Source: Fibrobacter succinogenes (lineage in GTDB: Bacteria > Fibrobacterota > Fibrobacteria > Fibrobacterales > Fibrobacteraceae). Taken from it: a stretch of DNA of 64,000 nt. Location of the stretch: contig CACVQR010000011.1 in the NCBI GenBank assembly GCA_902756345.1, positions 62,001 to 126,000 of the forward strand, given 5' to 3'. Below, in pieces: positions 8,887 to 41,494 of this stretch; positions within the stretch are counted from its first letter, which is position 1, and every line of letters begins with the position of its first letter. The notes under the pieces are model-generated. The model saw only the letters and a program-made list of their open reading frames with translations, made no database searches and was not told the DNA's origin. Made by a program: the position numbers and the translations under genes.

Positions 8887-8911
8887 TCATTTGTTGCAAA
8901 CAGGTGATGTT

Positions 8912-10282
8912 CTAGTAGAAAATTTTCACCAAGATTGTGCCCACGATGGTCGAGACGATGACGCTCACCAAGCCCGGCCGCATAAAGCTATGGTTCAGCA
9001 GGTACTTGCCGATAACGGTGGTGCCCGAACGGTCGAAATTCACGGTCGCAATGTCCGAAGGGTAATTCGGAATAAAGAAGTAGCCGTATACGCTCGGGAG
9101 TACGCCCAGGAGCACAGGGCCCTCGATGCCGAGGCTATAGGCGAGCGGGAGCATGGCGACCACGACTGCGCCCTGCGAATTGATGAGCACGCTCACCGCA
9201 AAGAACGCGAATGCGATGGCCCACGGGTAATGCTGCACGATATCCTTGAGGCCTCCCTGCATCACGTCCATGTAGTTCGCGAAGTAGGTGTCGGCGAGCC
9301 AGGCGATTCCGTAAATGGCGACGACGGCGACCATGCCGCTTTGCCACACGGCGCCCGCCACGGCCTTCTTGGGACTCGCCTTGCAGCAGATAACCATGAA
9401 CGCCGCGGCCGTTATCATTACAATCTGGATGATGATGTTCATGGCGAGCGGTTTTACCTGCGCTACGCCGTCAACAACCTTGCCGGTGGGGAATTGCGGG
9501 CGAATGTCGTGGCCCGCAATCTGCATAATGGAGAAGAATACGATGACGGCGAGAGCACCGAGGAAAATGAACACGGCGCGCTTCGCTTCCTTGGAGACTT
9601 CCTTGTCGAGCACGGAAGCGGTATTCCCGTACATGTATTCCTTCATCTGCGGGTCCTTGAGGCGGGCCTGGAATGCCGGGTCCTTGTCGAGGTCGAGCCC
9701 GCGCTTGTACGAGACGGCTGCCGCGGCCATGATCCCGCAAAGGCACGCGGGAATCGTAATCGCGATGACCTGCAGGTTATTGATGTTGAATCCGTTTGCG
9801 TTCGAGATGATGACGAACGAGGCGACGGCTGCTGCAATGGGCGAGCAGGTGATGCCGACCTGCGATGCGACGGAGGCCACGCCGCAGGGGCGTTCCGGGC
9901 GGATTCCCTTCTTGAGCGAGATATCGCAGATAATCGGCATGAGGGTGTAAACCACGTGGCCGGTGCCTACGAGAACCGTGAGGAAGAACGTGCAGAGCGG
10001 AGCGAGAATCGTGATATGGTTCGGGTGCTTGCGCAACAGGCGCTCCGCAATCTGGATCAGCCAATCCATGCCGCCCGATGCCTGCAGAATGCCTGCGCAG
10101 GTCACCGCCGCGATGATGATGTAAATGACATCGGTAGGCGGTTTGCCGGGCTGTAGGCCGAAGCCGAGCACGAGAATCGCAAGACCGATTCCCGAAATCG
10201 CGCCGAGGGCGAGGCTCCCGTAACGCGAGCCCACGTAAAGTGCCAATAGTACAATCAAGAGCTGGATAATCATGAGGGTCAT
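8912..10282 (-). CDS. dcuB: Anaerobic C4-dicarboxylate antiporter DcuB
   Basis: 456 residues, the usual length for DcuA/DcuB. Inner-membrane antiporter exchanging fumarate, malate or aspartate for succinate. It follows E. coli DcuB closely in several blocks: LQPGKPPTDV, LQASGGMDWLIQIAERLLRK, GTGHVVYTLMPIICD, LDLDKDPAFQ, and near the C-terminus YPSDIATVNFDRSGTT. About 11-12 membrane segments are visible. AAGGAGG precedes the ATG. In a Fibrobacter-type succinate producer, succinate export is the expected role. Divergently arranged with rubrerythrin. Confidence 0.92.
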   Translation of the reverse strand: MTLMIIQLLIVLLALYVGSRYGSLALGAISGIGLAILVLGFGLQPGKPPTDVIYIIIAAVTCAGILQASGGMDWLIQIAERLLRKHPNHITILAPLCTFFLTVLVGTGHVVYTLMPIICDISLKKGIRPERPCGVASVASQVGITCSPIAAAVASFVIISNANGFNINNLQVIAITIPACLCGIMAAAAVSYKRGLDLDKDPAFQARLKDPQMKEYMYGNTASVLDKEVSKEAKRAVFIFLGALAVIVFFSIMQIAGHDIRPQFPTGKVVDGVAQVKPLAMNIIIQIVMITAAAFMVICCKASPKKAVAGAVWQSGMVAVVAIYGIAWLADTYFANYMDVMQGGLKDIVQHYPWAIAFAFFAVSVLINSQGAVVVAMLPLAYSLGIEGPVLLGVLPSVYGYFFIPNYPSDIATVNFDRSGTTVIGKYLLNHSFMRPGLVSVIVSTIVGTILVKIFY

Positions 10283-25484: not shown

Positions 25485-25550
25485 GGAATATCTTTGAGTT
25501 TTCCTCTCCCCTGTCACTCCATTGTCATTCCATTATTATATATTTCCGGC

Positions 25551-27140
25551 ATGCCTAGAACAAAATCGACTTCCGCGCAGTCTGCGCCCGCAAAAAAGAA
25601 ATCCGTCCCCGAAAAGTCCGTAGAGGCGTCCCTCTGGGAGTCTGCGAACAAGTTGCGCGGCAGCGTGGAACCCGCCGAATACAAGCACGTGGTGCTTTCG
25701 TTAATCTTCCTCAAGTTTGCAAGCGACAAGTTCGAGGAACAGCGCGAAAAGCTCATCGCCGCCGGCCGCCAGAAATACGTGGAAATGCCCGAGTTCTACA
25801 ACAAGGACAACGTCTTTTACCTGGAAGAAACTTCCCGCTGGAGCTTTATCATCGAGCATGCCCGCCAAAGCGACATTGCGCTCCTGATCGATACCGCGCT
25901 TGCGAACATCGAAAAGAAGAACAAGGCGTTGCGCGGGGCGCTCCCCGACAACTATTTCTCGCGTCTGCAGCTCGACACCGCAAAACTCGCGGCGCTCATC
26001 AGCGACATCGACGGCATCGACACCATCAAGGACAAGGAACAGGATGTCGTTGGCCGCGTCTATGAATATTTCCTCGGCAAGTTCGCCATCGCCGAAGGCA
26101 AGGGCAAGGGCGAATTCTATACGCCCAAGACAATCGTCGGACTCATCGCCGAAATGATTGAACCCTACCGCGGCAAGATTTACGACCCCTGCTGCGGTTC
26201 GGGTGGCATGTTCGTGCAGAGCATGAAGTTTATCGAGGCGCATCACGGCAACAAACGCGAAGTCTCCGTATATGGTCAGGAATACACCGGCACCACGTAC
26301 AAACTAGCGAAGATGAACCTCGCCATCCGCGGCATCTCCGGAAACCTTGGCGACAAACCCGCCGACACCTTTGCCGAAGACCAGCACAAGGATTTGAAGG
26401 CTGACTTTATCATGGCGAACCCGCCGTTCAACCAAAAATCGTGGCGTGCCGAAAACGAACTCCTCGACGACCCGCGCTGGAAAGGCTACACCGTGCCGCC
26501 TACGAGCAACGCGAACTACGGCTGGATTCTGAACATCCTCTCGAAACTCTCCGAAAACGGCGTGGCAGGCTTTTTGCTCAGCAATGGTGCCCTCAGCGGC
26601 GAAGGCGACGAACAGCAAATCCGCAAGGAACTTTTGCAGAACGACAAGGTCGAGGCAATCCTCATTCTGCCCCGCAACATGTTCTACTCCACCGACATCA
26701 GCGTGACGCTCTGGATTCTGAACAACAACAAGACCGCCCGCGAAGTCAAGGTCGGCGATGCCATGCGCAAGTACCGTAACCGCAAAGGCGAAGTGCTCTT
26801 TATGGACCTGCGCCAGATGGGCGAACCCTTCGAAAAGAAATACACCCAGTTCAGCGCCGAGGACATCGCAAAAATCAGCGGCACCTACCACAAGTGGCAA
26901 ACGCAGAAAATCAAGGACGAACCCGAATACTGCGCCACCGCTACCCTCAAGGAAATCGAGGCGAAAAACTGGTCGCTCGTGCCGAGCAAGTACATTGAAT
27001 TCAGGAACCGCGACGAGACCGTGAACTTTGACGAAAAGATGCGTGAACTCCAAGCGGGAATGCGCACCCTCCTCAAGGCCGAAAAAGAAAGCGAAAAGGA
27101 ACTCGCCAAAGTGTTCAAGAACCTGGGATTTGAATTGTAG
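25551..27140 (+). CDS. hsdM: Type I restriction-modification DNA methyltransferase
   Basis: 529 residues from the ATG at 25551; the frame is open to a TTG further upstream, but that stretch has no coding character. An N-terminal HsdM helical domain (ASLWESANKLRG, EYKHVVLSLIFLKFASDKFEE) precedes the adenine-methyltransferase core: SAM motif DPCCGSGGMF (about 211-220) and catalytic NPPF (about 290-293), then a target-facing C-terminal helix bundle. It methylates DNA at sites chosen by HsdS and forms the core of the HsdRMS complex. No Shine-Dalgarno; TATATATT ends about seven bases before the ATG. Confidence 0.96.
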   Translation: MPRTKSTSAQSAPAKKKSVPEKSVEASLWESANKLRGSVEPAEYKHVVLSLIFLKFASDKFEEQREKLIAAGRQKYVEMPEFYNKDNVFYLEETSRWSFIIEHARQSDIALLIDTALANIEKKNKALRGALPDNYFSRLQLDTAKLAALISDIDGIDTIKDKEQDVVGRVYEYFLGKFAIAEGKGKGEFYTPKTIVGLIAEMIEPYRGKIYDPCCGSGGMFVQSMKFIEAHHGNKREVSVYGQEYTGTTYKLAKMNLAIRGISGNLGDKPADTFAEDQHKDLKADFIMANPPFNQKSWRAENELLDDPRWKGYTVPPTSNANYGWILNILSKLSENGVAGFLLSNGALSGEGDEQQIRKELLQNDKVEAILILPRNMFYSTDISVTLWILNNNKTAREVKVGDAMRKYRNRKGEVLFMDLRQMGEPFEKKYTQFSAEDIAKISGTYHKWQTQKIKDEPEYCATATLKEIEAKNWSLVPSKYIEFRNRDETVNFDEKMRELQAGMRTLLKAEKESEKELAKVFKNLGFEL

Positions 27141-27221: not shown

Positions 27222-28595
27222 ATGCCCGAAAGTCAGAACATCGAGTACAAGGAATCATGGCGAGATGAGTATATCAAGTGGATATGCGGTTTTGCGAATG
27301 CTCAAGGTGGAAAGATTTTTGTAGGTGTAGATGACAAGGGGCATGTTGTCGGATTGCAGAATGCCAAGAAGCTCATGGAAGATATCCCGAATAAAGTCAG
27401 GGATGCATTGGGTTTGTTGGTCGATGTGAACCTGCTTTCTGTAGATTCCAAGGAATACATCGAAATATCGGTTTCTCCGAGTACATATCCCGTAAATTAT
27501 AAAGGCGAATATCACTATCGGACCGGGAGTACCAAGCAGCTTTTGCAAGGTGCTTCGCTCACGCAGTTTTTGCTGAACAAGACCGGAACGAAATGGGATG
27601 CTCTCCCTGTCGATGGGGTTAGCTTTAGGGATTTGGACAAGGAAAGCTTTGACATCTTCCGCCGGGAGGCGAAAAAGTCGGGCAGGATGACATCACAAGA
27701 TTTGTCGATGACGGACGAAGAACTGCTTGACAGCCTGAATCTGGTTGTAGATGGAAAATTGACCCGAGCCGCAGTCTTGCTTTTTCACCGCAAGCCGGAA
27801 AAATGGTTTGGCGGCGCATACGTGAAAATAGGTTTTTTTGGCGATGGCCCCGATTTGCAATACCAGGATGAAATTTACGGTTCGTTGTTCATTCAGGCTG
27901 ATCGAGTCGTCGAGCTCATTTACCTCAAGTATTTCAAGGCACGCATCAGTTACGACGGCCTGATCCGGGTGGAACGCTACCCCATTCCAAAGGATGCCAT
28001 GCGCGAAGCCGTTTACAACGCCCTGATGCATTCGAATTACTCCTCTGGAGTCCCGATTCAAATTCGCATACACGAGAACGAAGTTCTTATAAGCAATGAC
28101 TGCATTTTCCCGGCCAATTGGACTGCAGAAACATTGATGCAACGGCACCGTTCGGAACAATACAACCCCAAAATCGCAAACGCGTTTTTTAGGGCGGGCT
28201 ACGTGGAAGCGTGGGGCAGGGGCATCGAAAACATGTGCAAACTTTGCAAGGATTATGGAGTCAAGACGGAATATACCGTACATCCCGAAGATGTGATGCT
28301 TGCATTTTTTGCCAAGCAAGAGACTGCGGCCACCCAATCCGCCACCCAATCGACCACCCAATCCGCCACCCAATCGACTCAAAAATACTTGCCGATTGAA
28401 ATTAAACTTATGCATTATCTGGTAGCCAATCCACGTGCAACTCAGGGTCAAATTGCAAAATACTTGGGAATGAACTTGAATACCACCAAGTATTATTTGA
28501 ACAAACTAGGTAAACTTGAAGTCCCCGCGATTAAGCACGAAGGCACGACAAGAAAAGGCTCGTGGATGGTTTTGATAGACTTGGAGAATCTATGA
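27222..28595 (+). CDS. AlbA/Schlafen-type ATP-binding regulator with winged helix
   Basis: 457 residues. N-terminal AlbA_2 (Schlafen-like) domain (about 1-120: NIEYKESW, GFANAQGGKIFVGVDDKG), a GHKL ATPase-type domain with the N-box AMREAVYNALMHSNYSSG near 259-276, and a C-terminal winged helix (about 390-457). A Thr-Gln repeat of four TQSA/TQST units sits between the ATPase and the HTH. Proteins of this family are usually annotated as transcriptional regulators. TAAGGA precedes the ATG. The stop overlaps the hsdS start (ATGA), so it is an integral part of the hsd operon. Confidence 0.87.
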   Translation: MPESQNIEYKESWRDEYIKWICGFANAQGGKIFVGVDDKGHVVGLQNAKKLMEDIPNKVRDALGLLVDVNLLSVDSKEYIEISVSPSTYPVNYKGEYHYRTGSTKQLLQGASLTQFLLNKTGTKWDALPVDGVSFRDLDKESFDIFRREAKKSGRMTSQDLSMTDEELLDSLNLVVDGKLTRAAVLLFHRKPEKWFGGAYVKIGFFGDGPDLQYQDEIYGSLFIQADRVVELIYLKYFKARISYDGLIRVERYPIPKDAMREAVYNALMHSNYSSGVPIQIRIHENEVLISNDCIFPANWTAETLMQRHRSEQYNPKIANAFFRAGYVEAWGRGIENMCKLCKDYGVKTEYTVHPEDVMLAFFAKQETAATQSATQSTTQSATQSTQKYLPIEIKLMHYLVANPRATQGQIAKYLGMNLNTTKYYLNKLGKLEVPAIKHEGTTRKGSWMVLIDLENL

Positions 28596-29740
28596 CAGGG
28601 CAGAATATGAAACGGCTTGGAGACTATATACGGCCCGTAGATGTGCGGAACAGGGACTTGAAAGTGAACTTATCTCAAGGAATCTGTAACCAAAAGTATT
28701 TCCAAAATCCAAAACAGGTTGCGGAAAATCCTGAAACGCATAAAATTGTTCGAACCGGACAGTTCGCGTATAATCGTGCAACTACTCGTAATGGAGAAAA
28801 AATATCAATTGCTTTACGAGAAGGTCCTGATTGCACAGTGTCTTCCGCATATCAGGTGTTTGAAGTGATTGACGAGAATGTTCTTAATTCCGAATATCTG
28901 ATGATGTGGTTTCGTCGCCCGGAATTTGACAGGCTTGCAATTTACTTCTCCCACGGAAGTGCCCATGAATTCTTTGAATGGGAATCAATGTGCGAAGTCC
29001 AGGTCCCCGTCCCAACGATAGAAAAACAGCGTGAAATCGTCGCCGAATACAACACCCTCGCCACCCGCATCGAAACCAACAAGAAACTCATCGCCACCCT
29101 CGAACAAACCGCCCAAACCCTCTACCGCCACACCTTTATCGACAACATCGACCCAAACAATTTGCCGGACGGGTGGAGGATGGGAACGATTGGTGATTTG
29201 GGAGAAATGGTGAGTGGGGCAACGCCTTCAACTACAGTTCCTGAGTATTGGTGTGAAAATGGAATTCCTTGGATCTCTCCTGCAGATCTCTCTCGAACAG
29301 GCTTAAAATTTATTTCAAGAGGGGCAAAAGACATAACAAAAAGTGGCTATGATAGTGCTAGTACATGGCTCCTTCCTAAAGGTTCGGTATTATTTTCATC
29401 TCGAGCTCCTATTGGGCTGATGGGTATAGTTGTCTCGGAATTATGTACTAATCAAGGCTTTAAGTCGATTGTTCCCAACGAAAAATATGGCTTTGGCTAC
29501 GTTTACTATTGTCTTAATTCGTTAAAGGATAAAATAGCCTCAGAAAATACAGGTTCCACATTTGATGAAGTTTCTGGTGAACGATTAAAATTATATGAAG
29601 TTGTACTTCCCGAAGAGAAAGTTACCGTAGAATTTCAAAATGCAATTGAAAAAATTTTTAATTTACAAGAAAAAAAAGAAAATGAAAATATAATTTTAGA
29701 TAAAATGATATCTGTTGTATTGTCAAAAATTTGCTGTTAG
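28592..29740 (+). CDS. hsdS: Type I restriction specificity subunit
   Basis: 382 residues from the ATG at 28592, which overlaps the preceding stop as ATGA and has GGAG eight bases upstream. Two target-recognition domains (about 1-150 and 200-355), each followed by a helical spacer (about 150-195 with PTIEKQREIVAEYNTL; about 355-382). The first TRD is of an atypical, shorter type; the second has the common GDLGEMVSGATPST and IPWISPADLS. Base composition changes abruptly at about 29160, at the boundary of the second TRD, indicating domain exchange. HsdS sets the sequence specificity. Confidence 0.92.
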   Translation: MTGQNMKRLGDYIRPVDVRNRDLKVNLSQGICNQKYFQNPKQVAENPETHKIVRTGQFAYNRATTRNGEKISIALREGPDCTVSSAYQVFEVIDENVLNSEYLMMWFRRPEFDRLAIYFSHGSAHEFFEWESMCEVQVPVPTIEKQREIVAEYNTLATRIETNKKLIATLEQTAQTLYRHTFIDNIDPNNLPDGWRMGTIGDLGEMVSGATPSTTVPEYWCENGIPWISPADLSRTGLKFISRGAKDITKSGYDSASTWLLPKGSVLFSSRAPIGLMGIVVSELCTNQGFKSIVPNEKYGFGYVYYCLNSLKDKIASENTGSTFDEVSGERLKLYEVVLPEEKVTVEFQNAIEKIFNLQEKKENENIILDKMISVVLSKICC

Positions 29741-29750
29741 GAGTAATCGA

Positions 29751-30776
29751 ATGGCTTTAAAAGAATGTATTGCATTAGATACAATCAAGTTCATGTCCAC
29801 AAAGACTAACTTGCATTATCAATTGCATTTTAATTTATGGAATTCTGATGACAATAAAATTAAAGCATTGGATGTTGGCGTAATGTGTCCAATTGCTGGT
29901 GATGATCATGTTGTATCTCTGATAATTCCGGGAGATTATTCTAAAGACAACGTGGTCTGCTTAAATAAAAAACTTCATGATTCGGATACCATAGACAATA
30001 TTTTTAATGCTCATGTTTCGTGGATAAAAGAAACAGATGATTTCAAAATTGCGGAAATTGATAAATCCCCAAAGCCAAACCTTATTTTTGCTATTTCGAA
30101 TTTTCACAACAAAAAAGATAAAGATGAAAAGGATGAATTGCTAATTCCTCTTAAAGAGCAAAGTAAATCCCAAAAAATTTCCCAAGAAATAAAAAATCAG
30201 AATTTGGTAATTCATTTTGAGGTCGCGAAAAAAATTGATGCGTCTGTAAAAAAAGAAGCTGTGACTGAATATTATGAATATTTTAGAATTAGAATAAACA
30301 AATTTGATTTAGCAAGATTTTCAATAATCGTGGAATCAAAACCAAATTTCGTTGTTCCGTCTTATGAAAAAAATGTTGTTCTAGAGTTTCGAGTAAACGA
30401 TCGGAAATTGATGTCGAGTGATGACCGGAAAGAAATGGATGAGCACAAAGTTTATTTTGATAAGATTCATTTTCTATTGATAAATGATATTCCTTGTAAA
30501 ACAATGATAACGGATGCATCAGCGAAAATTCGTCTATTTGAGAATAATAAATGGAAAGAGTATCTTTGTGGTGAAGAAATAAAAAAGCCCATGCTGGCAT
30601 ATCATTTAAGTAAAAAAAGTGAAGAAAATCAAAAAATCGAAATGAGTAGTTTTTTGATTAAATTTCAAGAAAAAAAGATGGCTAAATGCCAAGTTGGTTT
30701 ATATGTTATTGTCGCATTTCTTTTAGGTCTACTAGGAAGCCTTTGCTCCGATATTTTTAAATCTTTGTTTAGTTAA
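29751..30776 (+). CDS. Unrecognised protein with C-terminal membrane anchor
   Basis: 341 residues from the ATG at 29751; TTAGGAG formed by the hsdS stop is its ribosome site. The body is an AT-rich-coded, lysine-rich mixed alpha/beta protein with no recognised family. The last 24 residues (VGLYVIVAFLLGLLGSLCSD) form one membrane segment, so the bulk would face the cytoplasm as a tail-anchored protein. Five bases separate it from the PIN-GNAT gene. C-terminal anchors are common in effectors of abortive defence systems, but no effector motif is seen. Confidence 0.7.
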   Translation: MALKECIALDTIKFMSTKTNLHYQLHFNLWNSDDNKIKALDVGVMCPIAGDDHVVSLIIPGDYSKDNVVCLNKKLHDSDTIDNIFNAHVSWIKETDDFKIAEIDKSPKPNLIFAISNFHNKKDKDEKDELLIPLKEQSKSQKISQEIKNQNLVIHFEVAKKIDASVKKEAVTEYYEYFRIRINKFDLARFSIIVESKPNFVVPSYEKNVVLEFRVNDRKLMSSDDRKEMDEHKVYFDKIHFLLINDIPCKTMITDASAKIRLFENNKWKEYLCGEEIKKPMLAYHLSKKSEENQKIEMSSFLIKFQEKKMAKCQVGLYVIVAFLLGLLGSLCSDIFKSLFS

Positions 30777-30781
30777 CGGTT

Positions 30782-32248
30782 ATGCTTCGAATATTAATTG
30801 ATACTAATATTTTACTTCCTCTAGAACCAACATCTTTGAATGATGTCGAGTCTCAATCTCATTTGGCAAATGAATTTATTCAGAAAACTCAAAAGGCAAA
30901 TGCTTTAATATATTTATTGGATGTTCAAAAAAATGATATTAATCGTGATAAAGATGAAGTACGTCGAAAGCTGCGGTTGCTCGCTTGTGAAAAATATCAA
31001 TTATTAACAAAAATCCAAATTACCGATTTCATTAAAGAACATTTTGAAATAGATGATTTAAATTCTCATGATTATGTTGATGTCTCGCTTTTAAATGCTC
31101 TTTATTGTAATGCCGTCTCGATTTTAGTTACTAATGATTATGGAATTCATGCAAAAGCGAAAAGAATAGGCTTAGAGGATAAAGTCTATCGATTGGAAGA
31201 TGCTGTTGATTTTATCAATTTGCAACTTCCTTCAGAGTTAAAAGCGGAACCCCTGCATCCAATTATAAGCAGCGAGAAATGCTATAAATTGGACATACAT
31301 GATGCTTTCTTCGATTCGTTAAGGAAGGATTATCAAGGATTTGATAACTGGTTTACGCAAAAATGTCAATTAGAGCATCGTGATTGTTTTGTAATTCGGA
31401 ATGAGTCAAAAATCGCTGGGTTGTGTATTTACAAAAATGAAGAACCATCCTATGGAATGGCTGGTAAAGTGGTGAAAATATGCACATTTAAGTTGGGCTA
31501 CTCTGGAACAAAACAGGGAGAACTCCTTTTGCGACAACTTTTTAAAATGAGCTACGATTCAGATGTTGATTGGCTTTATGTGACCGCTTTTGAACAAAAC
31601 TATATATGTCAATTTTTTGAGGATTTTGGATTTGAACGTTACAGTGAAAAAAAGGCTGATACTGGAGAATTGATTTATCGACGCCATATGAAACCGTCTT
31701 TTGATGATCGAAATGCATTAGAGGCTTTGTCGTTTCATAAAAAATTTGGGTATCGCTACTTTATCCCTTCAAAAAATGCGTTTCTAATACCGACGGAAGA
31801 ACGTTTTTATGACCGGTTGTTCCCTGAAACAACAACATTAGACTTGTTTGGCGGAGAGCCTTGTTCGAACGCCATTAGAAAGGCTTATCTTTGTAACAGT
31901 AACTCAAGAAAACTTATCCCCGGTGATATTTTATTTTTCTACAGAACACACTCAGATAAAAAAATTGAATGCTGCGGTATTTTGGAAAAAGTACTTCATT
32001 CATCGAATCCTGATGAAATTCTTTCCTTGGTTGGAAAAAGATCTGTTTTTTCAAAAGTAGAAATAGAATCGATGTGCTCTAAAAGCAGAGATTGCTTTTT
32101 AATGCTGTTCAGACAAACGGAAAATCTTAAAAAACCATATAATTTGGAAAGTCTAAAGAAACAACATCTTGTAAATGGTTATCCCCAATCAATCACGATG
32201 ATTTCGAACGAGGCAAAAGAATGCATTCTGTCCCATATGCTATATTAA
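30782..32248 (+). CDS. PIN - GNAT - PUA-like fusion protein
   Basis: 488 residues in three parts. PIN nuclease (about 1-155): acidic ILIDTNILLP at the start and LVTNDYGIHAKAKRIGL later. GNAT acetyltransferase (about 170-312): IAGLCIYKNE, GTKQGELLLRQL in place of the acetyl-CoA loop, and QFFEDFGFERY. An EVE/ASCH-like PUA-superfamily domain (about 345-488): PGDILFFYRTHSDKKIECCG, then KRSVFSKVEI and CFLMLFRQT. PIN domains cut RNA, some GNAT toxins acetylate aminoacyl-tRNA, and PUA folds read RNA or modified bases. Combining them in one chain implies an RNA-directed activity. It overlaps the ASCH gene by 28 bases. Confidence 0.82.
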   Translation: MLRILIDTNILLPLEPTSLNDVESQSHLANEFIQKTQKANALIYLLDVQKNDINRDKDEVRRKLRLLACEKYQLLTKIQITDFIKEHFEIDDLNSHDYVDVSLLNALYCNAVSILVTNDYGIHAKAKRIGLEDKVYRLEDAVDFINLQLPSELKAEPLHPIISSEKCYKLDIHDAFFDSLRKDYQGFDNWFTQKCQLEHRDCFVIRNESKIAGLCIYKNEEPSYGMAGKVVKICTFKLGYSGTKQGELLLRQLFKMSYDSDVDWLYVTAFEQNYICQFFEDFGFERYSEKKADTGELIYRRHMKPSFDDRNALEALSFHKKFGYRYFIPSKNAFLIPTEERFYDRLFPETTTLDLFGGEPCSNAIRKAYLCNSNSRKLIPGDILFFYRTHSDKKIECCGILEKVLHSSNPDEILSLVGKRSVFSKVEIESMCSKSRDCFLMLFRQTENLKKPYNLESLKKQHLVNGYPQSITMISNEAKECILSHMLY

Positions 32249-32637
32249 TATCAATTTTTCCCCTATATTCAAATCAAATTTTTGAGGGCTCGAAAAAAAT
32301 TGAATTTAGAAAAAAGAGTTTTTCGTCAGATATAAAGAAAATCGTAGTTTATTCCACACTGCCCGTGGGAAAAATTGAAGGTGTATGGGATTATGATGGC
32401 GTTGAAGAATCAACTCCAGCTGGATTGTGGAAAAAATACTCTAAAGTTGGTGGAATAAAAAAGGACAAATATGACGCCTACTTTTTCGAAAGCGAAATCG
32501 CTTATGGAATAAAGGTCAAGAACCCTGTTCGTTTTAATAAGCCTGTGCCTATTGATGAAATTGGCAAAAAACCTCCGCAGGCTTATACTTATTTGACCGA
32601 AGCGGAATTTAATGAAATTTGCAAGAAAGGATGTTGA
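32221..32637 (+). CDS. ASCH-domain (PUA-like) protein
   Basis: 138 residues, a single ASCH domain of the COG4933 type: ILISIFPLYSNQIFEGSKKIEFRKKSF, VVYSTLPVGKIEG, YFFESEIAYGIKVKNPVRF, GKKPPQAYTYL. ASCH proteins bind RNA or modified nucleosides; one member, E. coli YqfB, deacetylates N4-acetylcytidine. Its start lies inside the preceding gene (28-base overlap), so the two proteins are translationally coupled and probably act as a pair. Confidence 0.85.
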   Translation: MHSVPYAILISIFPLYSNQIFEGSKKIEFRKKSFSSDIKKIVVYSTLPVGKIEGVWDYDGVEESTPAGLWKKYSKVGGIKKDKYDAYFFESEIAYGIKVKNPVRFNKPVPIDEIGKKPPQAYTYLTEAEFNEICKKGC

Positions 32638-32681
32638 AAATTGAGATTTTATTTATTTTTGAATAAACAGGAAATAAAAAT

Positions 32682-33455
32682 ATGTGCGGTCCCATTTTAA
32701 CATTTGTTTCTTATAATATAACGCAATCTAAAACATTATATGAACTGATTTTAAAGTATTTGTCTAATCAAACAGATACGATTCTTTTCTTGCAAGAGGT
32801 GAAGCCAACATTTACACTAGATCGGAATAAATATAATGTGGCACAAGTTCGTGGGCAAAAGAGAATGTCGGATTTGCGCATCTACGCCTCAAATAATTTA
32901 GATTCATTTTGTATAAAGTGTAATTCTCAAGATCGCTATCAAATCCTACAAACAAAGAATGGCTGTTTTGCAAATGTTCATATGCCTTCAAGTTGGAGAA
33001 ATGGAATGACTGAAGGCGATCGTTATGGAAAGCTTGCCAAAAAAATTAGGTCAAATTTTGAGTTAGATTTGATTGGAGGGGATATAAATGCAAATCCATT
33101 CGAAGAAGCGGTCTTTTCTCCTTCAGCATGGTTTGCAAAAAGGACATTGGATGACTTTACACGATATAGGGACAAAGGCTTAATAAATCCTTTTTGGCAA
33201 ATTTTTAATTCTAGTGCAAAAGAGGATTCTTTTGGATCGTTTCCAGGAAGCATGAATCATTTTTCCCGAAGGCAAATTTTGGATCAATTTTTTGTTCCAA
33301 CATCAAAACATGATAAAATTGTTGAAATTGGCGTTTTGAAGGAGCTATTTGGAGAATCTTTCGATGTGATAAATGCTAAAAAGGATGTGAAAGATGATAA
33401 GGGGAAGGGTAAACTTCATTGGCCTGTATTTATTAAATACAAAATAGGAGATTAA
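32682..33455 (+). CDS. Endonuclease/exonuclease/phosphatase (EEP) fold protein
   Basis: 257 residues. The motifs of the EEP superfamily are in order: FVSYNI (N12), LFLQEV (metal-binding E39), NVHMPSSW, GGDINANP (D134, N136) and the catalytic LHWPVF (H246). The nearest relatives are Mg-dependent DNases or phosphodiesterases; substrate unknown. Codon use is AT-rich like its neighbours. It starts 44 bases after the ASCH gene and its stop is one base before the next start. Confidence 0.75.
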   Translation: MCGPILTFVSYNITQSKTLYELILKYLSNQTDTILFLQEVKPTFTLDRNKYNVAQVRGQKRMSDLRIYASNNLDSFCIKCNSQDRYQILQTKNGCFANVHMPSSWRNGMTEGDRYGKLAKKIRSNFELDLIGGDINANPFEEAVFSPSAWFAKRTLDDFTRYRDKGLINPFWQIFNSSAKEDSFGSFPGSMNHFSRRQILDQFFVPTSKHDKIVEIGVLKELFGESFDVINAKKDVKDDKGKGKLHWPVFIKYKIGD

Positions 33456-33456
33456 C

Positions 33457-34134
33457 ATGTCTGAAAACTTATTAAAAAAAGAAATTGCAAGAACAAAAAA
33501 ACCTGAGAATACAGAAGACCAAAAAATTAATGAAGCGATTCTTCGTTTGGCCGAAGAAGCTAACGAAATTCGATCAGAGCAAAAATGGGATAATGTTTTA
33601 TTTACTTATAAGTTTATCCCTTTTTTCAAGAAATGGCTATTTCTTTCATTCTCGCCTTTTTATAAGGACACGGAAACAACCATTTTCAGCTTAGAGAAAC
33701 AGAACTCTAACATTATTCTTGATTGTTCGTATTGGCTAGATGCAAAAACAATCGCAATTGATGAGCATTTTTATGAAAATTTGGTGAAAATGTTTTCTAG
33801 TGTAGCAGAAACGGATGAATTTAGAGATACAATTAGAATATTTAATGATTTAGCAGGAAAGGAATACTTCGACTTAACGATTTTTTATGAGGCTGATATG
33901 CAGTATAGTCGTAAAAATCTTTTTGTTCAAGTTGATAGTAATTATTTTAAGTCATTCGTTGATCCGTCTAATGGAAAGTTGAAGATCAAGGAAATGTTGG
34001 TGCCATGTAATGATGTCACTCTTCTCCCGCCATTGACATTGCAAAGTTATTTAGGAAAGAATGGAGAAATAAATGGTTATCGATTTACATGTGCTAAGGT
34101 TGAGGGAAATCAAATATCTCTAAATTTTGCGTAA
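33457..34134 (+). CDS. Unrecognised 225-residue protein
   Basis: AGGAG lies six bases before the ATG, and the start almost touches the stop of the EEP gene, so the two are coupled. N-terminal charged helix (about 1-45), then a mixed alpha/beta body with aromatics (FFKKWLFLSFSPFYKD). No signal peptide, no recognised motif. Being coupled to the nuclease gene, it could be its inhibitor or partner; that is inference. Confidence 0.6.
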   Translation: MSENLLKKEIARTKKPENTEDQKINEAILRLAEEANEIRSEQKWDNVLFTYKFIPFFKKWLFLSFSPFYKDTETTIFSLEKQNSNIILDCSYWLDAKTIAIDEHFYENLVKMFSSVAETDEFRDTIRIFNDLAGKEYFDLTIFYEADMQYSRKNLFVQVDSNYFKSFVDPSNGKLKIKEMLVPCNDVTLLPPLTLQSYLGKNGEINGYRFTCAKVEGNQISLNFA

Positions 34135-34248
34135 CTTTTGTCGTTGTTTAAGTAATTGATAGAAGAGAACCATTAAGGGAGTCTTGTCTTAAAAAACAAT
34201 ATAAGCACTTTTCAAATTTAGTAGATTAATGTAAATCGGACTTATTCT

Positions 34249-34320
34249 ATGACTCCCCAATCCTTCTCTAAAATTTTCTGGATGCAGTATCTTCCCGAAT
34301 CTGAGCGAGATTGTGTTTGA
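34249..34320 (+). pseudogene. Remnant copy of the start of the gene at 36536
   Basis: A 24-codon frame whose first 15 codons match those of the gene at 36536 in 40 of 45 bases (MTPQ-FSKIFW-QYL), after which similarity ends and a stop follows. The two copies bracket the KAP-like NTPase gene, as if that gene had been inserted at, or left behind by recombination across, this 5' end. Confidence 0.75.
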
Positions 34321-34405
34321 TCAAAAAATCAAAAAGATAGAATTATGAGTAAAATTTTATAGGTCAATTTTACAAGTATTGAGATTTGAACAGGAGTTTG
34401 CTGTT

Positions 34406-36532
34406 ATGTCTAGCGAAAATAGTTTTTTTGGAAATAATCAACACATTGCAAATTTTCTAGATGGTTACTTAAGTGCTTCTAATAAACCGGACTATGCGGT
34501 ATTGATTACTGGTGACTGGGGCTCTGGAAAGACCCATTTTATTAAGAAATATCTTGGTGGTGATAAGAAAATTGTTAAGGATTGGCTGACTGATTGTGAA
34601 AAACATATTGTTCTTTATGTTAGTCTTTTTGGGGCCAAATCTAGAGCAGACATGGATGGTAGAGTCCTTGAAAAACTCCATCCGATTTTAAAGTCAAATA
34701 AAATAAAGGTATTTACTAGTTCATTTCCTATTATCGGAATGATTGCTGGTGCAAGTGCTCCTATTCCTGGCGGTACAATTATCGGTGAACGCATAGGTAA
34801 AGATTTTCAGTGTTTTACAGACGTGTTTAGGGAATCTTTGCTCAAAGAAAAACAAGAAAAGGATTTCAAAAATCTTGTGGTTGTTTTTGACGATGTGGAA
34901 CGAGCCGACATGCCATTGCCGGAATTACTTGGTTACTTAAACGAATATGTAGAACATTTGCAAGTTCCCTGTATTTTACTTGCCGATGAAAATGTTTGGA
35001 AAGAAATAAATGAATCACAAAAAATTCACCAAAAGAAAATTACAGGTAAAGTTGGTGGAACGGGTAAAGTGAATTTAATTGTTGAAAAAGCGATAAATCA
35101 AACTTTACATCGCCTTTCAAGTACAGAAGAAAAGGTTGTTGGCAAAAAATTTCAAATTCAGACATCACCGGAAGAAATCATTGAGGCATGGTTTCCGGAG
35201 AACAAAAATGGTACAACCATATTTGGCGAGGAAATTTATGAATTACTAAAACCTCATAAGGCTTTGCTCATATCAATTCTTGAAAAATCTCCTAAGCATA
35301 ACTATCGTGCATTTAAACAGTCTATTGATGATTTGAAAATTTTCATTGGTCCAAATTTTGAAAATATTTCAAAGGACTTACTAAAAGAAGAAAAATTAAA
35401 TTCCTTGATTTTTGCCGATTTCTTATGCTCTGTTTACGGGGCAAAATTAGCCATGCTTCGCAATGATCCATTTGTTGTTGCGGCCCAGAAAATTCAAATG
35501 GCAAGGGCTTTTGCTCGTGGAGCGGGAAACATTGTTGATGAAGAAGATGATGAAAATGTTAAAGATCCTTTTGATGATGCTTTTGGTAAAATAGAATGCA
35601 TTAGTCAAATGAGTCATGCTTGTGATACTGAAAAGTGGAATGCCATCTGGGAAAAATGGCTCGAATCATCTATTATTGACAAAGATGAAATTACCGCAGC
35701 AATAAAAGACACTATTTGGTTTGATAGGAAAAAACAGTATTGGACAGAACAACTATATCATTGGTATGAACTGAGCGATGATGAAGGTCGTCTTGCCTTA
35801 GATTCGTTTTATGAATCTATTGAGTCAAAAACAATTTTAAATCCAGATACGTTAATAGCATTGTATTATCGATTGTATTGGTATGCTTCAGAAGGTGTTT
35901 TGAAGGAGTCTGCTGAAGAGTTTTCAAAAAAAATGTATCAATACGTTGATGATGTTGCAAATGAAATGGAATATAGTGATTTAAGCCAATGGGACGATAA
36001 CTATGGCCGGGCCTATGACAGCGCTTATCTTGTACATGAAGAAAAAAATAAAGCCTTTGTTGAGCACATAAGGGAAAAATTAACTATTCGTAAGACAAAA
36101 CAACAGAAAAATGAAATTACGAATATAGAAAAGACTTTTGACCCCCAAAACCCTAAAAACGTTGATGACTTGTGTGGTAAAATCTCTTGCAGATTTGGTA
36201 GCTTGCAAGATTTTGAATTTGAAAAAATTGATCCAGATGTAATTGCAAGAATTTATGTCAGTTTAACGAATGTTAATGACAGTAGAAAGTTTATTGAGGC
36301 CATAAAAGAAAGATTTCGTAAGGAGTCATATGGTCTGATTGAACATGAGGAATTTTTGAATAAATTAAAGGAAAGTGCCGAAAAATTGAAGAAATCGTAC
36401 CCTAGGCCATTAACTACAAGGCAGTTTTCTCTGTATTATCTTGCAAAGGTTGCAGGGGATTATCTTGATTTCCTTCCTAGACTAAAAGAAGAACAAAAGG
36501 CTAGGCTGAATGATATGAAAAAGGATTTTTAA
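34406..36532 (+). CDS. KAP-like P-loop NTPase
   Basis: 708 residues from the ATG at 34406, chosen because CAGGAG lies nine bases upstream; a TTG nine codons earlier is less likely. Walker A GDWGSGKT (36-43), Walker B LVVVFDDVERA (about 157-167), with a hydrophobic stretch between them (FPIIGMIAGASAPIPGGTIIG) that may dip into or cross the membrane, the hallmark of KAP NTPases. The C-terminal 400 residues are helical and unassigned. KAP NTPases are found in phage defence and at membranes. Four bases separate its stop from the next gene. Confidence 0.78.
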   Translation: MSSENSFFGNNQHIANFLDGYLSASNKPDYAVLITGDWGSGKTHFIKKYLGGDKKIVKDWLTDCEKHIVLYVSLFGAKSRADMDGRVLEKLHPILKSNKIKVFTSSFPIIGMIAGASAPIPGGTIIGERIGKDFQCFTDVFRESLLKEKQEKDFKNLVVVFDDVERADMPLPELLGYLNEYVEHLQVPCILLADENVWKEINESQKIHQKKITGKVGGTGKVNLIVEKAINQTLHRLSSTEEKVVGKKFQIQTSPEEIIEAWFPENKNGTTIFGEEIYELLKPHKALLISILEKSPKHNYRAFKQSIDDLKIFIGPNFENISKDLLKEEKLNSLIFADFLCSVYGAKLAMLRNDPFVVAAQKIQMARAFARGAGNIVDEEDDENVKDPFDDAFGKIECISQMSHACDTEKWNAIWEKWLESSIIDKDEITAAIKDTIWFDRKKQYWTEQLYHWYELSDDEGRLALDSFYESIESKTILNPDTLIALYYRLYWYASEGVLKESAEEFSKKMYQYVDDVANEMEYSDLSQWDDNYGRAYDSAYLVHEEKNKAFVEHIREKLTIRKTKQQKNEITNIEKTFDPQNPKNVDDLCGKISCRFGSLQDFEFEKIDPDVIARIYVSLTNVNDSRKFIEAIKERFRKESYGLIEHEEFLNKLKESAEKLKKSYPRPLTTRQFSLYYLAKVAGDYLDFLPRLKEEQKARLNDMKKDF

Positions 36533-36535
36533 TAA

Positions 36536-37075
36536 ATGACTCCCCAACAATTCTCCAAAATTTTCTGGAAGCAGTATCTTCTGCTTGAAAAAGATTTCCT
36601 TGAAACGGATGAGTTTGTGACGATTGACAAGAGCAACTTCAAAACGTTCTCCAGCCGTTACACTTATCTGTTCTTGAACATCTGTAGTGAAATTGATTCC
36701 ATCGCAGAAGAATATTGCAAGGTTGTGAAGGCTCCTTCGAAGGTCAAGAACATCTTGCAGAAAATGACCGTCATTGTGAATGACGACCCGAAGATTAAAG
36801 ATCAAAGGGTTTCTACGAAGTATCCTTACGAGATTATCAATTTTGTCCCGTTTGCCGGTTTTGACAGCGAGTCGGCTGCTGGCTGGTGGCAGGATTATAA
36901 CTTGGTCAAGCATTTCCGTGCCGATGTTCCGGAAAAGGGAATCCCGAACTATCAGCACGCGCACTTGAAAAATGTGATGAACGCCCTCGCCGCCCTCTAC
37001 ATTCTCTGCCAGAATCTCTACAAACTCCTCGGCGAATCCGACCTGCAACTCGAACCGTCAAGGCTGTTTGAATAG
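36536..37075 (+). CDS. Small helical protein, HEPN-like in appearance
   Basis: 179 residues, predicted all-helical, with a pattern WWQDYNLVKHFR...HAHLKNVMNALAALYIL reminiscent of HEPN-type four-helix bundles, but without the RxxxxH nuclease motif. Three bases after the NTPase stop. Its codon use is host-like and GC-richer than the NTPase gene before it, so the two probably have different histories. A truncated copy of its start lies at 34249. No function assigned. Confidence 0.65.
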   Translation: MTPQQFSKIFWKQYLLLEKDFLETDEFVTIDKSNFKTFSSRYTYLFLNICSEIDSIAEEYCKVVKAPSKVKNILQKMTVIVNDDPKIKDQRVSTKYPYEIINFVPFAGFDSESAAGWWQDYNLVKHFRADVPEKGIPNYQHAHLKNVMNALAALYILCQNLYKLLGESDLQLEPSRLFE

Positions 37076-37087
37076 CAGAAAAAAGTC

Positions 37088-37116
37088 TTGACAAATCTGC
37101 TCTAGAAATATATATT
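37088..37116 (+). promoter_or_regulatory. Sigma-70-type promoter for rhuM gene
   Basis: TTGACA at 37088-37093, a 17-base spacer, TATATT at 37111-37116; transcription would begin near 37123, 27 bases before the ATG at 37150. Confidence 0.65.
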
Positions 37117-37149
37117 TAGTGCACAAGTGAGTAGAGAAACGGCGGAGAT

Positions 37150-38160
37150 ATGTCGAACGAACTAGCCAAGCAGATATCGTATATTCTTTACAGTAGTCCT
37201 GAAGAAGATGTCAAGGTCATGGCCTTAGTCAAAGACGAGACCATCTGGCTGACGCAGAAGGCTATGGCCGAGTTGTTTGATGTTAATGTTCCGGGCATTT
37301 CGAAGCATTTGAAAAACATATACGAGGAAGGAGAGCTTAGTGAATCCGCAACTGTTTCCATTTTGGAAACAGTTCAAAATGAAAATGGCCGTTCCGTAAA
37401 GCGCAATGTCTCTTTTTACAATCTCGATGCAATTATTTCCGTCGGTTACCGTGTAAATTCTGCGAAGGCCACAAAGTTCCGCATTTGGGCTACGGGAATC
37501 CTGAAGGAATACATCAAGAAGGGTTTTGTGCTCGACGACGAGCGTTTAAAGCAGGGTAACGCTGTTTTCGGTAAGGACTACTTCAAGGAACTTTTGGAAA
37601 GAGTCCGCTCTATCCGTGCGAGCGAACGCCGCATTTGGCAGCAGATAACGGATATTTTTGCGGAGTGTTCCATAGACTACGACAAGGATTCTGAAATAAC
37701 GAAAAAGTTTTTCGCCACGGTTCAGAACAAGTTTCACTATGCGATAACGGGGCAGACTGCTGCAGAAATCGTGTACGAGAGGGCCGACCACAAAAAAGAG
37801 CACATGGGGCTTACGACCTGGAAAAATTCTCCGAGCGGGCGTGTGCTGAAAAGCGATGTGAACATTGCCAAGAATTATTTGTCAGAAAAGCAGATCCGTC
37901 AGCTGGAACGCGCTGTGAGCGGTTATTTTGACTACATCGAAGACTTGATAGAGCGGGAGATTGCTTTTAACATGGAGCAGTTTGCCGCAAGCGTGAACGA
38001 GTTCTTGGAATTCAGGCGCTACGACATTCTCGATGGCAATGGAAAAGTCAGCCGGGACCAGGCGGACGAGAAAGCTTTCGGGGAATACGAGATTTTCAAC
38101 CGCACGCAAAAAATTGACTCTGATTTCGACAAGGTAATCCGGAAAATAAAGAAGAATTAG
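37150..38160 (+). CDS. RhuM-family protein
   Basis: 336 residues matching the RhuM (virulence RhuM) family: VKDETIWLTQKAMAELFDVNVPGISKHLKNIYEEGEL (winged-helix-like N-terminus), RKNVSFYNLDAI-type block, GYRVNSAKATKFRIWAT, and KNSPSGRVLKSDVNIAKNYL. RhuM genes are often found inside type I restriction loci; the role is unproven, though the HTH suggests DNA binding. Own promoter at 37088. Confidence 0.88.
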   Translation: MSNELAKQISYILYSSPEEDVKVMALVKDETIWLTQKAMAELFDVNVPGISKHLKNIYEEGELSESATVSILETVQNENGRSVKRNVSFYNLDAIISVGYRVNSAKATKFRIWATGILKEYIKKGFVLDDERLKQGNAVFGKDYFKELLERVRSIRASERRIWQQITDIFAECSIDYDKDSEITKKFFATVQNKFHYAITGQTAAEIVYERADHKKEHMGLTTWKNSPSGRVLKSDVNIAKNYLSEKQIRQLERAVSGYFDYIEDLIEREIAFNMEQFAASVNEFLEFRRYDILDGNGKVSRDQADEKAFGEYEIFNRTQKIDSDFDKVIRKIKKN

Positions 38161-38227: not shown

Positions 38228-41200
38228 ATGGCGTTCAAGGAAGCCGACTTAGAGAAAGTGTTTATTGACCTCCTGGTTCAGGAGGGCTGCAAGTACGTGC
38301 CCGGCGAGGCGATTGACCGTGGCGAGGGCGAGGTCTTGATTGAGCAGGACATGCGCGACTACTTGCACCGTCGCTACGATTCCGAGGGCATTACCGAGAA
38401 TGAAATCCGTTCAATTGTTCTGCAGTTGCGTTCGCTTTCGGCGAGTGCGCTCTACGAGAGCAACAAGAAGTTCTGCTCATGGCTATCGGACGGATTTATG
38501 CTCAAGCGCGAGAACCCGAAGGACAAGGACATTCTCATTGAGCTTTTGGATTTTAGGCCGCTGGGTGAGCGTAGAAAATCGGGCGTCGGTGTCAATGATG
38601 ATGAAGAGGCGATGCCGCTGGCGGCCGATGTGGTGGCGAAATACTGCGCCGACTGCAATATCGTCAAGATTGTAAACCAATTTGAAATTGTCGGCTCCGA
38701 AAAGCGGATTCCCGATGCAATTCTTTTTTTGAACGGGCTCCCGCTTGTGGTGTTCGAGTTCAAGAGTGCCGTGCGCGAGGAGGCGACGGTTTTCAACGCC
38801 TACGAACAGTTGACGGTGCGTTACCGCCGCGACATTCCGCAGCTGTTTGTCTATAACGCCTTCTGCGTGATTAGCGATGGCGTGAACAACCGGGCGGGCA
38901 GTTTCTTTGCCAAGTACGATTACTTTTATGCGTGGCGTCGCGTGGAATTTGGCGACAAGCGAATCGAGGCCGAGGGCATCGAGAGCCTTTACTCCATGAT
39001 TCAGGGGATGTTCAATCGCAAACGCCTGTTGGACATTTTCAAGAACTTCCAGTATTTCCCGGACAGCAGCAAAAAGGAGCAGAAGGTTCTGTGCCGTTAT
39101 CCGCAATATTATGCGGCGCGGTCTTTGTACGAAAACATTTGCAAGGCCCGCAAACCGCATGGCGACGGCAGGGGCGGCACGTATTTTGGCGCGACGGGTT
39201 GCGGCAAGAGCTTTACGATGCTCTTCTTGACGCGGTTGCTCATGAAGTCGCTCTCATTTAAGACGCCGACGATTGTGCTGATTACCGACCGCACCGATTT
39301 GGATGACCAACTTTCGGGACTGTTTACGGCATCCAAGAAGTATATCGGTGACGAGCGTGTCGAAAGCGTGGAGAGTCGTGCCGACCTGCGTGAAAAATTG
39401 CAGGGCCGCAAAAGCGGTGGCGTGTTCCTCACGACCATCCAGAAGTTCAGCGAAGATATTGAATTGCTGACCGACCGCGATAATGTTGTCTGCATTTCGG
39501 ACGAAGCGCACCGCACGCAGACAAACCTGGACCAGAAAATTACCGTGACCGATAAGGGTGTCAAGACGAGTTTCGGTTTTGCGCGTTACTTGCACAACTC
39601 CTTGCCCAATGCGACTTACGTGGGCTTTACGGGAACGCCGATTGATGCGACGCTCGATGTGTTCGGCCCCGAGGTCGATATTTACACCATGACCGAATCG
39701 GTGAAGGACGGCATTACGGTGCCCATCGTTTATGAGGGCCGTGCCGCCAAGGTGGTGTTGAACAATTCCGTTCTCGAAGAGATTGAGAAGTATTACGAAG
39801 AAGCCGCAGAAGCGGGTGCCAACGATTACCAGATTGACCAGAGCAAACAGGATGTCGCGCAGATGGGCGTGATTCTCGGCGACCCCGACCGATTGAAGGC
39901 TGTGGCGAAGGATTTCGTGGCGCATTACGAGGCCCGTGTTCAGGAAAAATCAACCGTTCGCGGCAAGGCGATGTTCGTTTGCTATAGTCGCCAGATTGCG
40001 TATGCATTGTACAAGAACATCTTGGAACTGCGCCCAGAATGGGGCGTGGCGAAAATTTGCGACGATGCGGAATTTGCGGGCGAGGCGACCGAACTTACCG
40101 ACAAGGAAAAGCGGGAACTGAAACCGGTTGAAAAAATCAAGATGGTCATGACCCGCAGCAAGGACGACGAAAAGGAACTTTACGACTTGCTCGGCGACAA
40201 GGACGCCCGCAAGGAACTGGACCGCCTTTTCAAACAGGAACGCTCCAACTTCAAGATTGCGATTGTCGTGGATATGTGGCTCACGGGTTTTGACGTTCCG
40301 TGCCTCGATGCCATTTACATCGACAAGCCGATTCAGCAGCATTCCCTGATTCAGACGATTTCCCGCGTGAATAGGACGTTTGCGGGCAAGGACAAGGGAA
40401 TCGTCGTCGATTACATCGGCATCAAGCGCAAGATGAACCTGGCACTAAAGCAGTACGGTGCCGGTTCCGAGCAGAATGTAGAAGACATTACCGCAGCGAT
40501 TGCGGAATTCCGCAACCATCTGGATTTGCTTGACAAGTTGATGTACAAGTTCGATGCGTCGGCGTATTTCAAGAGTGCAGGTGACGGTGCGGAATTGAAA
40601 AAGCTGGAATGTCTCAAGCAGGCGCAGGAATTCGTGCAAACCACGAAGGAAAAGGAAGCTCGCTTTATGGGCCTCGCGAAACGCTTGAAAGCCGCATACG
40701 ACATTTGCGTCGGCAACGAGGGAATTACGCAGGCCGAGCGCGACCGTGCGCATTTCTACTTCGCGATTCGCTCCATTTTGCATAAACTCACCAAGGGCAA
40801 TGCCCCCGATACCGCGCAGATGAACGCCCGTGTGCGCGAGATGATTGCATCGGCACTCCAGAGCGAAGGCGTGGAAGACGTTCTGCAGTTGAGCGATGCC
40901 GAAGCCGACCAGGCAAAACAGAACATCTTTGACGACGAATACCTGCAGCACATCAACCGCATCAAACTGCCGAATACAAAAATCAAGTTGCTGCAGATGC
41001 TCTTGCAAAAGGCCATCGGGCAAATCCGCAAGGTGAACAAAGTCAAGGGCGTCAACTTCACGCAGAAAATGCAACAGCTCGTGGAGCAATACAACGACCG
41101 CACCGAACAAGACATCTTGAAAAGCGAAGTCTATGAAGAAATGGCCGAAACCTTGACCGACATGATTGTCCAAGTCCGCAAGGCATTCACCGAAGGCGAA

Positions 41201-41494
41201 GAAAAGGGCCTCAGCTTCGAAGAAACCGCGTTCTATGATATTCTAAAATCGCTCTGCGTCAAGTACCACTTCACCTATCCCGAAGACAAACTAATTGCCC
41301 TCTCGAAACGCGTCAAGATTCTCGTTGACGAACAAGCCGCATACCCCGACTGGGACAAGCGCGACGACATTAAATCCGCATTGAAAGTGGACCTGATAAT
41401 CCTTCTCGATGAATTCGGTTACCCGCCCGTAGAACGCGACGAAGTCTATGGGGAGATATTTGAGCAGGCCGAGAATTTTAAGAAGAATTTGTAA
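38228..41494 (+). CDS. hsdR: Type I restriction endonuclease, R subunit
   Basis: 1088 residues. The N-terminal PD-(D/E)xK nuclease has PDAILFLNG and VVFEFKSA (about 161-182). The SF2 helicase/translocase has Walker A GATGCGKSF (about 322-330), DEAH (about 424-427), GFTGTPID, and the later motif QTISRVNRTF. A long helical C-terminus binds the methylase complex. Complete, no frameshift. GC-rich, host-like codon use, matching hsdM. No Shine-Dalgarno before the ATG; TTGCGC, 16 bases, TATTTT ends seven bases upstream, hence possibly leaderless. Confidence 0.95.
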   Translation: MAFKEADLEKVFIDLLVQEGCKYVPGEAIDRGEGEVLIEQDMRDYLHRRYDSEGITENEIRSIVLQLRSLSASALYESNKKFCSWLSDGFMLKRENPKDKDILIELLDFRPLGERRKSGVGVNDDEEAMPLAADVVAKYCADCNIVKIVNQFEIVGSEKRIPDAILFLNGLPLVVFEFKSAVREEATVFNAYEQLTVRYRRDIPQLFVYNAFCVISDGVNNRAGSFFAKYDYFYAWRRVEFGDKRIEAEGIESLYSMIQGMFNRKRLLDIFKNFQYFPDSSKKEQKVLCRYPQYYAARSLYENICKARKPHGDGRGGTYFGATGCGKSFTMLFLTRLLMKSLSFKTPTIVLITDRTDLDDQLSGLFTASKKYIGDERVESVESRADLREKLQGRKSGGVFLTTIQKFSEDIELLTDRDNVVCISDEAHRTQTNLDQKITVTDKGVKTSFGFARYLHNSLPNATYVGFTGTPIDATLDVFGPEVDIYTMTESVKDGITVPIVYEGRAAKVVLNNSVLEEIEKYYEEAAEAGANDYQIDQSKQDVAQMGVILGDPDRLKAVAKDFVAHYEARVQEKSTVRGKAMFVCYSRQIAYALYKNILELRPEWGVAKICDDAEFAGEATELTDKEKRELKPVEKIKMVMTRSKDDEKELYDLLGDKDARKELDRLFKQERSNFKIAIVVDMWLTGFDVPCLDAIYIDKPIQQHSLIQTISRVNRTFAGKDKGIVVDYIGIKRKMNLALKQYGAGSEQNVEDITAAIAEFRNHLDLLDKLMYKFDASAYFKSAGDGAELKKLECLKQAQEFVQTTKEKEARFMGLAKRLKAAYDICVGNEGITQAERDRAHFYFAIRSILHKLTKGNAPDTAQMNARVREMIASALQSEGVEDVLQLSDAEADQAKQNIFDDEYLQHINRIKLPNTKIKLLQMLLQKAIGQIRKVNKVKGVNFTQKMQQLVEQYNDRTEQDILKSEVYEEMAETLTDMIVQVRKAFTEGEEKGLSFEETAFYDILKSLCVKYHFTYPEDKLIALSKRVKILVDEQAAYPDWDKRDDIKSALKVDLIILLDEFGYPPVERDEVYGEIFEQAENFKKNL

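Follow-up and report, generated by a model that had tools for sequence, protein, structure and literature searches.

A dead gene start that lies upstream of a KAP-family NTPase gene in a Fibrobacter type I restriction-modification (R-M) operon is, in our judgement, probably the scar of a modular gene exchange in a defence hotspot, effected by one-sided homology together with an illegitimate joint. The dead start and its intact counterpart, a gene of 179 codons beginning at position 36536 (hereafter the 36536 gene), bracket the NTPase gene in the stretch of 64,000 nucleotides that was analysed (hereafter the window), and they appear to derive from two different alleles rather than from the copying of one gene end.

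Organization of the R-M locus

The genes of this Fibrobacter locus make up a type I R-M operon that also houses a variable set of defence genes (Table 1); its HsdM, HsdS and HsdR subunits were all recognized by Pfam searches. Candidate defence genes located by PADLOC between hsdS and hsdR are PDC-M11A and PDC-M11B, the KAP gene (PDC-S49) and a RhuM-family gene (PDC-S05). The left frame gene, hsdM, is 93-99% identical in G071, L003, L006 and G091. On the right, sequence comparison indicates a frame made of the 36536 gene and RhuM, conserved while the cargo varies; RhuM is mostly 98-100% identical where it lies near the 36536 gene (91% in G071). Comparison of positions 32221-34240, in the left-hand cargo, with 61 genomes of the genus returned nothing beyond short chance-level DNA matches. 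The strong-looking promoter element upstream of RhuM was observed in dozens of places across the genus.

Table 1. Features of the R-M locus and of the KAP joint (window coordinates)
Feature	Position	Strand	Evidence or remark
hsdM, type I R-M methylase, left frame	25494-27140	+	Pfam HsdM_N, N6_Mtase
Schlafen/AlbA_2-type gene at the hsdM/hsdS joint	27222-28595	+	Pfam; tblastn, 98.7% identical in G071
hsdS, specificity subunit	28562-29740	+	Pfam Methylase_S
Cargo block left of the remnant	29715-34134	+	ORFs, PADLOC
Cargo gene, no assigned identity	29715-30776	+	ORF
PDC-M11A	30782-32248	+	PADLOC
PDC-M11B	32221-32637	+	PADLOC
Two cargo genes, no assigned identity	32682-33455, 33457-34134	+	ORFs
Decayed leader (ribosome-binding region) before the remnant	34231-34248	+	Aligns with the leader that separates KAP from the 36536-type relic in G098
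Remnant, initial 46 bases of a different 36536 allele	34249-34294	+	41/46 to own copy
Filler between remnant and KAP unit	34295-34367		Without match in the genus
KAP unit (gene and short leader)	34368-36535	+	Also present at a second chromosomal site in G098 and G004
KAP-family P-loop NTPase, PADLOC candidate PDC-S49	34406-36532	+	Pfam KAP_NTPase 1.3e-14; PDC-S49 1.6e-72
36536 gene, intact 179-aa frame gene	36536-37075	+	Fits no curated family; for relatives see text
Promoter-like element (TTGACA, TATATT) before RhuM	37086-37138	+	Repeated across the genus
RhuM-family gene (PDC-S05)	37150-38160	+	Profile matches (Pfam, PADLOC)
hsdR, restriction subunit, right frame	38228-41494	+	Pfam HSDR_N, SWI2_SNF2, T1RH-like_C

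The KAP product matches the PDC-S49 profile over residues 11-675, near its full length, and contains the P-loop motif GDWGSGKTHF; its gene is under purifying selection (dN/dS about 0.14) and is a probable anti-phage gene, a candidate PDC-S49 system. It resembles that PADLOC candidate single-gene defence system in the extent of the match and in being intact, and differs in adjoining a 179-aa gene that stands beside other cargo too, the defence role being predicted from the profile. A transposon-like cassette was ruled out for KAP because neither a transposase nor terminal inverted repeats are present. The first-pass annotation had pointed to the difference in base composition between KAP (34% G + C, GC3 27%) and its intact neighbour (45%, GC3 61%); the contrast is real but not peculiar to KAP, and separates cargo from frame, since the left-hand cargo block (30-35%) is similar to KAP and the 36536 gene to RhuM (45-46%), with HsdR at 52%.

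No curated family fitted the 36536 protein in profile searches, and its AlphaFold model (mean pLDDT 51) was too poor for use. The gene is under strong purifying selection (dN/dS 0.04-0.06), and about a dozen loci with the gene or its ends were found when GTDB genomes were scanned and 80 genomes of the genus searched. The idea that it is the exclusive partner of KAP was rejected, as at least five other cargo types adjoin it and distant relatives occur on plasmids without KAP. In L010 (9866-10096) its last 31 codons are fused in frame to the start of hsdM, which is the deletion scar of a whole cargo region.

A duplicated gene start on either side of the KAP gene

Positions 34249-34294 agree with 36536-36581 at 41 of 46 bases (blastn E 4e-11 within the window), and form with them the top-scoring direct repeat of the 64 kb. 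The earlier count of 40 equal bases in the first 45 was thereby confirmed, as were the dead state of the remnant, whose reading frame has 23 codons and a stop (34249-34320), and the place of the KAP gene between the copies (ATG at 34406, stop ending at 36532). Homology between the copies begins precisely at the ATG and ends abruptly at 34294. Just 15 comparable short direct repeats were found in a scan of about 1.26 Mb of the same genome, so that the pair is rare and no chance match. Positions 34231-34294, which include the decayed leader, align with G098 at 90.6% over 64 columns (blastn); the 73 bases that follow matched nothing in a genus-wide comparison, and Rfam gave no match to a structured RNA at the junction.

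The same joint in related genomes

In relatives, the place next to the start of the 36536-type gene is taken by at least five other and unrelated cargo genes: a 1271-aa nSTAND-like ATPase (L002, L004), a RecD2-like helicase (G081), an FRG-type gene preceded by SIR2- and HerA-type genes (G071; these three names were read from the sequence and are not profile-based) and small proteins (G091, L003), whereas KAP is found there in the window and in G098. Relatives bearing the 36536 gene without the NTPase, and other cassettes at the same junction, had been proposed as a check by the first-pass annotation, and both exist. The closest relative at the same locus, G071 (hsdM 99% and hsdR 97% identical), has one intact 36536 gene and neither KAP nor remnant, and the association of both copies with the NTPase, far from being common to all relatives, was found in none of the 80 genomes of the genus besides the source genome. 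No empty-site allele for the exact KAP joint was found in the genus genomes searched, which counts against the explanation that we prefer; relatives of the cargo block to the left of the remnant are lacking in the genus, so that the state before insertion is not seen.

KAP also occurs at another chromosomal site, next to metH. In G098 a KAP gene 88% identical to that of the window is followed by 14 bp and then by the start of a 36536-type gene, about 46 codons long, and at the same site in G004 KAP is followed by the leader alone, without a 36536-type gene. Homology of the KAP unit starts at 34368 or 34378 and extends to the gene start (blastn: 34368-36631 against G098, 88.8%; 34378-36536 against G004, 88%). 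KAP joined to the start of a 36536-type gene thus exists outside the R-M locus. A 36536-type gene accompanied by a Schlafen-type gene was likewise observed at both places, within the R-M operon of L004 (9508-11594) and next to metH in G062/L005. These two chromosomal hotspots, metH and the R-M operon, exchange parts. Many of the related loci come from metagenome assemblies, so that any one junction may be an artefact of assembly; the most important of them recur in independent genomes.

Two alleles rather than one copied end

Over its 46 bases the remnant agrees with G098 at 45 positions, with L002 and G071 at 44, with G081 at 43 and with the adjacent intact copy at 41. Four of the five differences between the copies correspond to alleles seen in relatives, and codon 12 holds the sole private change of the remnant. 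At codon 5 the intact copy and the three divergent relatives (L004, L005, G091) read CAA, the remnant and its close group TCC or ACC; the intact copy thus has the outgroup codon and the remnant a derived one. Although this comparison rests on a short stretch of 46 bases, the copies are not sisters, the remnant carrying the start allele of G098, L002, G071 and G081. A fresh duplication followed by decay is disfavoured because mostly private changes would be expected, and standing alleles are seen. The insertion of a cassette with duplication of the target end, as first suggested, therefore holds in part: the cassette does sit at a recurrent joint, where relatives have other cargo and no NTPase, but the resident end was probably not copied, and the second gene start probably came in with the cassette. 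It counts against our preferred explanation that the intact copy could have had its start exchanged in a later recombination.

Different alleles would also be expected had two full modules once stood in tandem, each ending in its own 36536 gene, and had a later deletion, not directly connected with the arrival of KAP, left 46 bases of the first of these genes. The gene is indeed frequently eroded to end pieces (L006, L007, L009, L010, L011); this history needs an extra step, however, none of the related loci was seen to hold two complete copies in tandem, and we regard it as unlikely.

Recombination within the gene and sister scars

In L004, the left flank and about the first 190 bases of the 36536-type gene are L002-like, the body of the gene and the next gene are L005-like, and RhuM is L002-like again. 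Between L002 and L004, dS is 0.24 in the flanking ATPase and 0.97 in the 36536-type gene. By its sequence L004 is a natural recombinant with a breakpoint inside this gene.

A scar of the same architecture was found at hsdS. In L003 and L004, 42 bases from the hsdS ATG stand upstream of a 473-aa ATPase gene that is followed by an intact hsdS, the two copies agreeing at 41 of 42 bases. In four genomes (G010, G072, G077, G095) the leader is joined directly to hsdS, with one copy and no ATPase; empty-site alleles, which the first-pass annotation had called for, were thus found for a like architecture at hsdS and not at the KAP joint. Because the hsdS scar has these empty sites, the class of event is documented and not merely deduced. 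Position 18 of the dead and intact hsdS starts has the same base within a genome and differs between L003 (3223-3264/4811-4852) and L004 (316-357/1904-1945), a pattern at one site only that hints at gene conversion between copies.

Inserted genes in L003 and G091 are flanked by copies of the 3' end of the 36536 gene, 43-44 bp long in the former and 59 bp in the latter; further rearrangements are marked in G004, G098 and L010 by degraded pieces of hsdM, of hsdS and of the 36536 gene. Among the short repeats that bracket genes in 176 kb of such loci, five of seven are gene-end copies, which represent four independent events; 439 kb of control sequence yielded one clear case. The comparison is a rough one, as the loci were chosen as relatives.

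The hsdS case, with near-identical copies and clear empty sites, fits plain duplication equally well, and direct repeats do flank the KAP insert. A true target-site duplication would suppose a transposition-like insertion of KAP at a point 46 bases inside the resident gene, the target being copied and the dead copy then decaying. On the other side, the differences between the copies are relatives' alleles (four of five, over a short comparison) and not private decay; KAP alone is encoded between them, and neither a transposase ORF nor terminal inverted repeats are present; elsewhere on the chromosome, in G098, KAP also stands next to this gene start; and the copies are of unequal lengths (42-67 bp). 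To our knowledge, copies of such lengths are no usual transposase footprint. This explanation is accordingly given a low probability. An integrase-type island mobilized by an enzyme encoded elsewhere could also leave direct repeats at gene starts or ends and an intact frame gene, as SXT restores the gene end at prfC on integration, but this is very improbable, as no tyrosine or serine recombinase ORF lies between the repeats, repeat lengths and positions vary between cases, and the copies are different alleles.

Repeats around AAA_14/DUF4143 ATPase genes

Elsewhere in the source genome (L125, G000:C6), the promoter and first 11 bases of a RhuM-family gene are duplicated (6987-7053 and 8907-8973; 67 bp, 98.5%) around a gene for a 444-aa AAA_14/DUF4143 ATPase. 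In G102, G005, G030, G081 and G061 the flanks of this insert overlap by exactly 67 bp, corresponding to one copy without the ATPase; a lipoprotein-like gene piece precedes the second copy in L125, which is thus not a simple insertion. An intergenic repeat at about 8609-8702 of L125 is present in most genomes of the genus and multicopy in some. At L201 (G000:C4, about 232808-234822) an 80-bp promoter-to-ATG repeat (92.5%) surrounds an AAA_14-type ATPase gene on the opposite strand. The idea that these ATPase genes are mobile cassettes which gene-start repeats generally bracket was rejected, flanking repeats being found for only 3 of the 35 members of the family in the genus, one of them a 31-bp match.

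Proposed mechanism

In the exchange that we favour, the resident chromosome would have carried the left-hand cargo (29715-34134) followed by its own 36536-type gene, and foreign DNA would have entered in which KAP was already joined to another allele of that gene; KAP thus probably arrived with its own copy of the gene start attached. Homologous recombination inside the shared gene or downstream would have closed the right side, and an illegitimate joint 46 bases into the resident gene the left side, leaving the old gene start (dead), the filler, KAP and the new intact gene. Unrelated defence genes would in this way be exchanged to the left of the start codon of the frame gene. The one-sided homologous event, the order of the steps and the entry route of the DNA are reconstructions. 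Such an event would explain both the different alleles of the two copies and the intact downstream gene, and the repeat would begin exactly at the ATG because the sequences upstream of it in donor and resident were unrelated.

Homology-facilitated illegitimate recombination is the simplest account. On the right, the window shares homology from the 36536 gene to hsdR with relatives whose left-hand cargo is different, and L004 has a breakpoint in this gene; a leftover of the displaced module persists as a different allele of the frame gene. On the left, where the illegitimate joint would lie, homology ends at 34294 and the filler beyond it is without match. Such recombination is known from transformable bacteria and from E. 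coli conjugation, the illegitimate joint usually showing 3-10 bp of microhomology (PMC3240628). It has been proposed for the displacement of effector modules in Vibrio T6SS arrays, to which rhs C-terminal displacement was cited as a parallel (PMC5361080). Common to the Vibrio case and to ours are a conserved anchor, an illegitimate other end, the addition of a new module and an old piece left behind; here, in contrast, the leftover is a dead gene start of 46 bases, the frame gene encodes a small uncharacterised protein, and the modules are defence genes in a type I R-M operon.

Discussion

The locus is like known defence islands and hotspots in that variable defence cargo lies between conserved frame genes, and differs from them in that the R-M operon itself serves as frame and offers three joints (hsdM/hsdS, hsdS/36536 gene and 36536 gene/RhuM/hsdR). 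No direct precedent for cargo between hsd genes was found in the literature searched, which is not proof of absence. A broader proposal, that the Fibrobacter R-M operon sustains a standing, recombinase-free uptake of single defence genes exactly at frame-gene start or stop codons, with duplications of about 40-70 bp, the frame gene kept and the insert losable, is considered doubtful. The scar is real and largely explained, and its mechanism is ordinary: the event is of an already known kind, well documented here.

The locus gives a base-by-base view of how defence genes that lack a mobile element of their own can be exchanged inside an R-M operon. Where a gene start or end lies dead next to the intact gene, it is a searchable mark for ordering such events, and attention is drawn to a 179-aa protein, strongly conserved, that keeps its place as the neighbouring defence genes change.
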